Positions 16,161 to 17,517 of a DNA stretch of 64,000 nucleotides are shown in pieces. Position 1 is the stretch's first letter. Each line of letters opens with the position of its first letter. Origin of the DNA: Methanococcus voltae (GTDB taxonomy: Archaea > AGJL01 > Methanococci > Methanococcales > Methanococcaceae); assembly GCF_024807655.1 (NCBI RefSeq), contig NZ_JANUCR010000004.1, positions 1 to 64,000 of the forward strand. Reading direction: 5' to 3'. Under the pieces are notes generated by a model that saw only the letters and a list, made by a program, of their open reading frames with translations, had not been told where the DNA came from and did not search any database. Position numbers and translations under genes: made by a program.

Positions 16161-16234
16161 AGCCAAGGAAGGGATTTGAACCCCTCTGAAGCGGATCTGC
16201 AGTCCGCTGCCTCGCCGGACTAGACTACCTTGGC
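16161..16234 (-). tRNA. trnC: tRNA-Cys (GCA)
   Basis: A full cloverleaf on the minus strand: 7-bp acceptor GCCAAGG/CCTTGGC, D stem GTCT/AGGC, anticodon stem GCGGA/TCCGC with loop CTGCAGA (anticodon GCA, U33 present), a 5-nt variable region and T arm AGGGG/CCCTT. The discriminator is U73, the key cysteine identity base. Residues 15 and 48 are both G, a feature noted in some tRNA-Cys. The 3' CCA is not encoded. A run of T follows the 3' end on the minus strand and may terminate transcription. A TATA box lies at 16288-16296. Confidence 0.97.
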
Positions 16235-16287
16235 ACTTGCGTGTTTAATCTATTTCTTTTATTTACAAGTATAGGAGGGCTATTCTA

Positions 16288-16296: not shown

Positions 16297-16371
16297 GTTT
16301 TCTATAATTTGTCATATATCTACATATATAATTTTATTGGTACAATTTTAGTAAGTTATTCCTCGAAAAAA

Positions 16372-16445
16372 AGCCAAGGAAGGGATTTGAACCCCTGTTG
16401 CACGAATCTGATGTCCGTTGCCTGGCCGGACTAGACTACCTTGAC
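16372..16445 (-). tRNA. tRNA-Cys-like tRNA with UCA anticodon and A33
   Basis: A complete 74-nt cloverleaf closely resembling the neighbouring tRNA-Cys. The acceptor is GTCAAGG/CCTTGGC with a U-G pair at 2-71. The D stem GTCT/AGGC and T arm are identical, and U73 is kept. The anticodon stem is ACGGA/TTCGT: pair 27-43 changed from G-C to A-U on both sides, and 30-40 became G-U. The 7-nt loop is CATCAGA, so positions 34-36 are UCA, which would read UGA, and position 33 is A instead of U. The variable region is GCAAC, so 15-48 becomes G-C. It is not tRNA-Sec: the acceptor has 7 bp, the D stem 4 bp and there is no long variable arm. It is either a novel UGA-reading or non-decoding tRNA, or an early pseudogene. 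Confidence 0.8.
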
Positions 16446-16597: not shown

Positions 16598-16606
16598 CTA
16601 TATAAG
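16598..16606 (-). promoter_or_regulatory. TATA box of the UCA tRNA
   Basis: On the minus strand it reads CTTATATAG within AAAACTTATATAGTATAATAG, almost the same as the context at the tRNA-Cys promoter (AAAACTTTATATAGTAGAATAG). The predicted start site is near 16573, giving a leader of about 128 nt. Confidence 0.55.
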
Positions 16607-16785
16607 TTTTTTGATTATTTATTTTGATTATTTAATTACCTATTTTTTATAACAATACTATTTTTGATTTAAAATGTTTTATACATTCTATAATGTCTAT
16701 TCTTTCTATTCTTTCTATTCTTTTCCATATAATTTAACAAATAACTTATAAATTTATATATTCCAATATACGCTTTTTAAAAAGA

Positions 16786-16814: not shown

Positions 16815-17330
16815 TATATATTATACTAAAGAAATTGAGAAACACGTTAATCTATACAATAACTAAGGTTAGAGATAGATTTAAATCGAAATCTATATAA
16901 ATAAAGTTAACATAGTATTTGATGAAGTATTAAGGGACTGAAACACAGACAATTATATATGTTATATGATTACAATTAACAATTAATTACTCAAAAATGC
17001 TGATTTATAGGCTAAATGGTATTATATTAGTATTACCTTCGGATTTATATATTAGTTTTCAGTGTAATTATGATTATGGTTGTATGATTTATATTTTGAC
17101 TGATTGGATAGGTTCCTACGTCTGTAAATCTAATAATAAAGTGAATATACGGGTATTTGCCTTTTAGGTACCCAATATACGTGATTAAACAAGAATCATA
17201 TTGGTCATACTAATTAAATGGTTGAAGTCAGAAACCTTAATGTCGTATGGTTGGTAAATTGAGCATATAAATATAATAGTTATTTAATATTTCGTTTAAT
17301 AAGTTTATTAATTATCGCTTAACAATTGAA
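16815..17330 (+). ncRNA. Candidate structured ncRNA (unidentified)
   Basis: This gene-free stretch has no ORF above 60 codons on either strand. It follows a strong TATA box and is less monotonous than other intergenic DNA here. Visible hairpins are: a perfect 8-bp stem 16875-16882/16889-16896; a bulged stem 17151-17155/17169-17173 with an inner 3-bp pair; and a long stem 17206-17249 made of CATAC/GTATG, ATTAA/TTAAT and GGTT/AACC with small bulges. I could not match RNase P RNA, SRP RNA or a complete C/D-box RNA. The boundaries are guesses from the promoter and the tRNA-Ser promoter. Confidence 0.35.
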
Positions 17331-17343: not shown

Positions 17344-17376
17344 GCACAGCGAATGAAAACTTAAAAACGTTGATGT

Positions 17377-17461
17377 GCAGAGATAGTCTAGCCCGGAAAG
17401 GCGTACGGCTGGAACCCGTATGAGGCTTTGCCTCTCGGGGGTTCAAATCCCCCTCTCTGCG
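17377..17461 (+). tRNA. trnS: tRNA-Ser (GGA)
   Basis: An 85-nt class II tRNA: acceptor GCAGAGA/TCTCTGC, D stem GTCT/AGGC, anticodon stem TACGG/CCGTA with loop CTGGAAC (anticodon GGA), a long variable arm with stem GAGGC/GCCTC, T arm GGGGG/CCCCC and discriminator G73. CCA is not encoded. It lies directly upstream of the ribosomal protein cluster. T-rich tracts at 17465-17480 could partly terminate transcription. Confidence 0.97.
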
Positions 17462-17517
17462 TCACTTTTTTATTTTTTTTACAGTCATCAAACACGAAGA
17501 TCTCTGGAGGTGCAAGA

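Follow-up and report, generated by a model that had tools for sequence, protein, structure and literature searches.

The described systems closest to the locus studied here are tRNAs whose body and anticodon point to different identities or which read UGA. The bacterial selC* tRNA-Cys is a Cys-type tRNA with U73, and the UCA anticodon occurs in some of its members (PMC7609411). Its body is of the 8/4 type, as in tRNA-Sec, with an A51a bulge, and in some lineages it adjoins selB* and/or cysS*. The mistranslating tRNA-ProX of Streptomyces carries A33, a foreign anticodon and an unusual 15-48 region (PMC11415595); it is widespread and has a dedicated ProRSx. The tRNA-Sec itself carries UCA and is distinguished by a long acceptor and a long variable arm. 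It has been known that archaeal tRNA-Cys is identified by U73, G15, A47, G34, C35, A36 and G37, among which G34, C35, A36 and U73 are the strongest elements for both CysRS and SepRS (PMC9976931), while SepCysS-SepCysE needs U73 independently of the anticodon (PMC5688128).

We examined a tRNA-Cys-like gene with a UCA anticodon in Methanococcus voltae, in a stretch of 64,000 nucleotides (the window). The genome is a draft of 1.86 Mb in 18 contigs. The genes and positions concerned are as follows.

16372-16445, minus strand: tRNA-Cys-like gene with anticodon UCA, the duplicate copy (hereafter the UCA copy), called by ARAGORN and matched by Rfam RF00005 at 38.3 bits
16409-16411, minus strand: anticodon UCA, positions 34-36, from ARAGORN and the sequence
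16412, minus strand: A33 replacing U33, from the sequence; the 37/37 other tRNA genes have U33
16161-16234, minus strand: normal tRNA-Cys(GCA), the parent gene, from ARAGORN and Rfam, with the same sequence in 7/7 genus members
17376-17463, plus strand: tRNA-Ser(GGA), the third tRNA gene of the region

Both ARAGORN and the Rfam tRNA model recognise the UCA copy as a complete 74-nt cloverleaf. The sequence-only reading had described such a cloverleaf beside a normal tRNA-Cys(GCA), with anticodon UCA and A33, and all of this was borne out. The score of 38.3 bits exceeds the RF00005 cut-off of 29 and places the gene in that family, and it is the lowest among 37 RF00005 matches genome-wide, compared with 50.3 bits for the neighbouring tRNA-Cys(GCA). 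U33 is present in 37/38 tRNA genes of the genome, the UCA copy being the sole exception. The gene lies upstream of tRNA-Cys(GCA) at a spacing of ~137-138 nt, in a region with lysS, tRNA-Cys, tRNA-Ser and ribosomal proteins, and no partner synthetase or elongation factor adjoining it was seen in the gene content of the locus. The two tRNA sequences are 85% identical over 74 nt, which rules out a chance similarity.

When we compared the UCA copy with the known systems, the nearest was the tRNA-Cys(GCA) of Methanococcus, with which it shares the acceptor stem apart from one wobble, the D stem, the T arm, U73 and G37. It differs from that tRNA in UCA, A33, G48C, A27-U43 and an altered variable region, and also in a weak and displaced promoter. 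It resembles selC* tRNA-Cys in its U73 Cys type and, for some members, in the opal anticodon, but its body is a plain 7/5 one (a 7-bp acceptor and a plain 5-bp T stem without the bulge), and neither selB* nor cysS* stands next to it. With tRNA-Sec it shares UCA and nearly the same anticodon loop, but the 7/5 body and the 5-nt variable region do not have the arm lengths of tRNA-Sec. The real tRNA-Sec lies at C1:424305-424393 and scores above the RF01852 cut-off in the family search, and the UCA copy is absent among the RF01852 matches listed. Since it lacks the defining features of both groups, the UCA copy belongs to neither selC* tRNA-Cys nor tRNA-Sec, although by analogy it could work like selC* tRNA-Cys. 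Like tRNA-ProX, it combines one identity's body with another's anticodon, A33 and an unusual 15-48 region, but tRNA-ProX is of another identity and domain, while the UCA copy occurs once, in one genome. Within the genus, tRNA-Sec scores above the Rfam cut-off in six members; in the seventh (G001, a complete single-contig genome) the best match reaches 36.9 bits, below the cut-off, and SepSecS is present.

Alignment of the UCA copy with tRNA-Cys revealed 11 differing sites: C2U, G21C, G27A, U33A, G34U, C40U, C43U, U44G, U45C, C46A and G48C. Changes at four stem sites give U-G at 2-71, A-U at 27-43 and G-U at 30-40 and break no pair, and 21/21 stem pairs remain intact despite the 11 substitutions. 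The change at 27-43, from G-C in tRNA-Cys to A-U, is compensatory, and the preserved pairing there had been correctly noticed from the sequence alone, as had the retention of U73. G1-C72, G15, G37, A47 and the T arm are also kept. The D and T arms had been taken to be the same in the two genes, which is right for the D stem and the T arm but not for the D loop, where position 21 changes from G to C. In the variable region, positions 44-48 change from UUCAG to GCAAC. G21C and C48 need not harm the fold, because tRNA-Cys genes in the family have G, A or U at position 21, and C48, which restores the ordinary 15-48 pair, also does so together with A47 in the tRNA-Cys of a Methanocaldococcus-type relative (L020).

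Under 11 random substitutions, a mean of ~4 broken pairs is expected, and the probability of zero broken pairs was 0.001-0.008 across a range of free-mutation models. When the four stem changes were taken as given and all were C>T or G>A, a model that matches the changes observed in this AT-rich genome, P was 0.12. The preserved stems suggest selection on the structure of the UCA copy, but this is not firm, since P rises to 0.12 and the cluster of four changes in the variable region may be one event. RNA folding of the unmodified UCA copy preferred a non-cloverleaf structure (-23.9 kcal/mol, versus -17.2 kcal/mol for the cloverleaf). Such an optimum is common for tRNAs in these folding programs, and the result was therefore given little weight.

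We then compared the locus among relatives. A search with the 74-nt sequence found one tRNA-Cys per genome in 19/21 family relatives and a second tRNA-Cys-like copy in none of the 21. A pattern scan of 36 phylum genomes, in which any tRNA-Cys-like arm with UCA was accepted, found no such arm besides the UCA copy. In the two nearest relatives the lysS / tRNA-Cys / tRNA-Ser locus is intact without the UCA copy, and the copy's neighbour towards lysS, the normal tRNA-Cys, is intact in every relative. The normal gene shows 0 changes across 7/7 genus members, compared with 11 in 74 for the UCA copy. The absence from relatives and the identity of the normal gene throughout the genus indicate a lineage-specific duplicate; a duplicate lost everywhere else is less likely. 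Absence from close relatives combined with decay of the cloverleaf had been named beforehand as a mark of a pseudogene; the former was found in 21/21 family relatives, but the cloverleaf has not decayed.

The 15% divergence of the UCA copy is close to that of unconstrained DNA on the same branch, and therefore its rate does not support constraint. Intergenic identity between this genome (G000) and G006 is 74-83% (17-26% divergence, both branches included), and nearly all of the differences are G000-specific or on the root branch. The UCA copy thus resembles tRNA pseudogenes and duplicates in being a local, lineage-specific duplicate with fast, relaxed divergence, a weakened promoter and loss of U33, whereas pseudogenes have broken or truncated cloverleaves and its 21 pairs are so far unbroken. 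As for other origins, a pattern scan of viral contigs gave no match and plasmids gave no near match. A remnant of an integration site was rejected, because the 137-bp spacer between the copies contains no element genes and includes the promoter of the parent gene, which aligns with relatives.

Promoters were scored with a matrix derived from the genome's own tRNA genes (consensus GAAACCTTTATATA), and the flanking features are as follows.

16599-16612, minus strand: TATA/BRE-like sequence with the highest matrix score upstream of the UCA copy, AAAAAACTTATATA, at 153 nt and 11.3 bits
16289-16302, minus strand: promoter of the normal tRNA-Cys, GAAAACTTTATATA, 54 nt upstream, 17.5 bits
16454-16509, minus strand: part of the UCA copy's 5' leader with 4.7 copies of a 12-bp tandem repeat, 90% matches (Tandem Repeats Finder)
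16366-16371, minus strand: T-run, a possible terminator, directly 3' of the UCA copy; one is also found 3' of the normal tRNA-Cys

No match above 4.3 bits to this matrix was found within 110 nt of the UCA copy, and the promoter distance in the other lead tRNA genes with a match is 31-106 nt. The 11.3 bits of the distant match is slightly above the 95% level of shuffled sequences (10.8). Some other tRNA genes score 9-10 bits, and tRNA-Sec scores 10.2; these genes presumably work, and the UCA copy may therefore be weakly expressed with its long leader. The 3' flanks of the two copies are unrelated apart from the T-run (P 0.72), and their 5' flanks show a weak similarity (P 0.06).

Some other features of this region were observed. 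The leader of the normal tRNA-Cys (16235-16271) is conserved between species and bears at its ends an inverted repeat, ACTTG...CAAGT, which could form a hairpin directly before the mature tRNA-Cys; the UCA copy does not have it. In the intergenic region from tRNA-Cys to tRNA-Ser, blocks at 16870-17240 show strong conservation with G005 and G006, begin with a promoter-like CGAAATCTATATAAAT and have no Rfam match; judging from conservation, they are a possible unannotated small RNA. In G005, the gap between tRNA-Cys and lysS holds a long repeat array of the AACAACTAAC type, ~60-230 nt 3' of tRNA-Cys, and microsatellites have often expanded around this locus in the group.

With respect to charging and decoding, the genome encodes SepRS, SepCysS, CysRS and SepSecS, the last of which had been reported from the sequence alone and was located at C4:62571-63953. 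The aRF1 motifs are those of the all-codon release factor type and are kept, with no change seen. On inspection of the SepRS sequence, the anticodon-binding region was not obviously altered, and no adapted synthetase for the UCA copy was found in the parts examined. Among the archaeal tRNA-Cys identity elements, the UCA copy retains U73, G15, A47 and G37; its anticodon is not G34 C35 A36, and the sole element lost is G34, replaced by U34. In the work of Fukunaga and Yokoyama (2007), SepRS reportedly had to be engineered to accept opal and amber anticodons, which would make efficient charging by an unchanged SepRS less likely.

The use of UGA was counted in 1.26 of the 1.86 Mb, in non-overlapping, mechanically called ORFs. 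UGA is the stop codon of 31/1096 ORFs (2.8%), compared with 4.4% in G006 and 2.3% in G005. UAG stops drop from 8.3% to 4.6%, the same shift as for UGA from 4.4% to 2.8%, and the UGA:UAG ratio is unchanged (Fisher P 0.71), indicating that UGA is no more depleted than UAG; the fall in UGA stops fits AT drift. An apparent depletion in 400 kb (4 versus 14 genes) vanished with 1.26 Mb, and UGA reassignment was dropped because the two stop codons shift alike. In the same 1.26 Mb, back-up stops were not in excess after UGA. When the proteins of relatives were aligned to the genome, the only believable gene found with UGA in frame at a Cys position was the fdhA-like one, whose UGA stands at a known Sec site motif. 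Nearly all tblastn matches that suggested UGA for Cys came from spurious overlapping ORFs, and the reverse search was symmetric. Neither the depletion nor the conserved sense UGA that accompany natural opal suppressors or reassignment was seen in the 1.26 of 1.86 Mb. These statistics and the fdhA-like Sec codon indicate that UGA is read as stop and Sec, as in relatives. The Sec codon of this gene, in the motif NTASV-U-HGPS, is TGA in this genome (G000:C1:434705) and in G006 (G006:C1:404137) and TGT (Cys) in G005 (G005:C1:480001-500000 at ~6590, minus strand). By sequence, Sec and Cys have been cleanly exchanged at this site between near relatives, in the direction from Sec to Cys.

Based on these observations, we suggest with moderate confidence that the UCA copy is a non-decoding duplicate of recent origin and is drifting towards pseudogene status, the most likely of the explanations considered. 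The poor promoter, the odd anticodon loop and the absence from relatives make a fading duplicate likelier than a working UGA reader. The tRNA-Cys would have been duplicated immediately upstream of itself after the split from the nearest sequenced relatives, and the spare copy would then have picked up its 11 substitutions, U33A and G34U among them. G34U would deprive SepRS and CysRS of a major identity base, and U33A would weaken codon reading. Growth of the leader by tandem repeats may have moved a weakened promoter to ~150 nt upstream. The RNA is probably made little or not at all and charged poorly, and any UGA decoding by it would be too low to have shaped the genome. The stems may still be paired because the copy is young or because a residual function kept them. 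Of the three possibilities raised by the sequence-only reading, an early pseudogene and a regulatory or non-decoding tRNA fit best, while a UGA-reading cysteine tRNA is unsupported: UGA is undepleted relative to UAG, no believable gene outside the fdhA-like Sec codon was seen to use it for Cys, SepRS shows no obvious change, the copy has lost G34, and its promoter is both weak and displaced.

We regard a low-activity opal tRNA as unlikely, though still worth weighing. It would be transcribed, receive Cys through CysRS or SepRS/SepCysS or else keep phosphoserine, be delivered by EF-1alpha and read UGA at low frequency, with A33 holding its efficiency to a tolerable level; stop read-through and Cys at Sec codons would follow, for example under selenium scarcity. 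The preserved pairing with the compensatory A27-U43 is modest evidence for it, the retained U73, G37, G15 and A47 point the same way, and selC* tRNA-Cys with UCA (PMC7609411) and the A33-bearing tRNA-ProX (PMC11415595) are bacterial precedents. Since UGA is rare as a stop (31/1096) and encodes Sec in the fdhA-like gene, weak suppression would also cost little. However, UGA depletion does not go beyond that of UAG, back-up stops are not enriched, believable genes have no UGA at Cys positions, and no change was seen in SepRS or aRF1; the weak, displaced promoter, the absence in relatives and the lack of a synthetase or elongation factor beside the gene argue against it as well. Somewhat less probable is a non-decoding, regulatory role, in which the matured RNA would bind SepRS, CysRS or SepCysS, the last of which reads U73 alone, or occupy processing or modification enzymes. 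Retention of structure with loss of decoding features is consistent with this, as is the finding that SepCysS-SepCysE requires U73 but not the anticodon (PMC5688128), but the gene is species-specific and has a weak promoter and no associated gene. An origin of the anticodon arm by gene conversion from tRNA-Sec, giving a Cys-Sec hybrid, is improbable. The tRNA-Sec loop is CUUCAGA and its 3' stem strand ends in U, so that G34U and C43U are shared with the UCA copy, but the normal tRNA-Cys and tRNA-Sec arms are already alike at most positions, arm sites 27, 33 and 40 are not those of tRNA-Sec, and the likeness is equally well accounted for by two shared point changes. An assembly or sequencing artefact might be suspected in a draft of 18 contigs, and a single-base error in the anticodon had been considered from the sequence alone. 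The 11 differences are spread and alter both 33 and 34, the 3' flank is distinct, the 5' leader bears repeats, and the locus lies inside a 249-kb contig with flanks that align with relatives, making an artefact very improbable.

It is in our view doubtful that this is an ordinary-shaped archaeal tRNA-Cys reading UGA, held back by its own A33, in a cell also using UGA as Sec and stop. If it were true, three meanings of UGA would exist in one cell, sorted by competition among aRF1, SelB/tRNA-Sec and the UCA copy. An active UCA copy would be a natural archaeal example of a Cys (or phosphoserine) tRNA that competes for UGA with both selenocysteine and termination, and would provide a natural test of the effect of A33 in a mistranslating tRNA, a role that a 2024 review called unexplored (PMC11415595). 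If it is inactive, the locus would be a snapshot of the drift of a tRNA duplicate, in which the anticodon and its loop change first and the stems stay paired.
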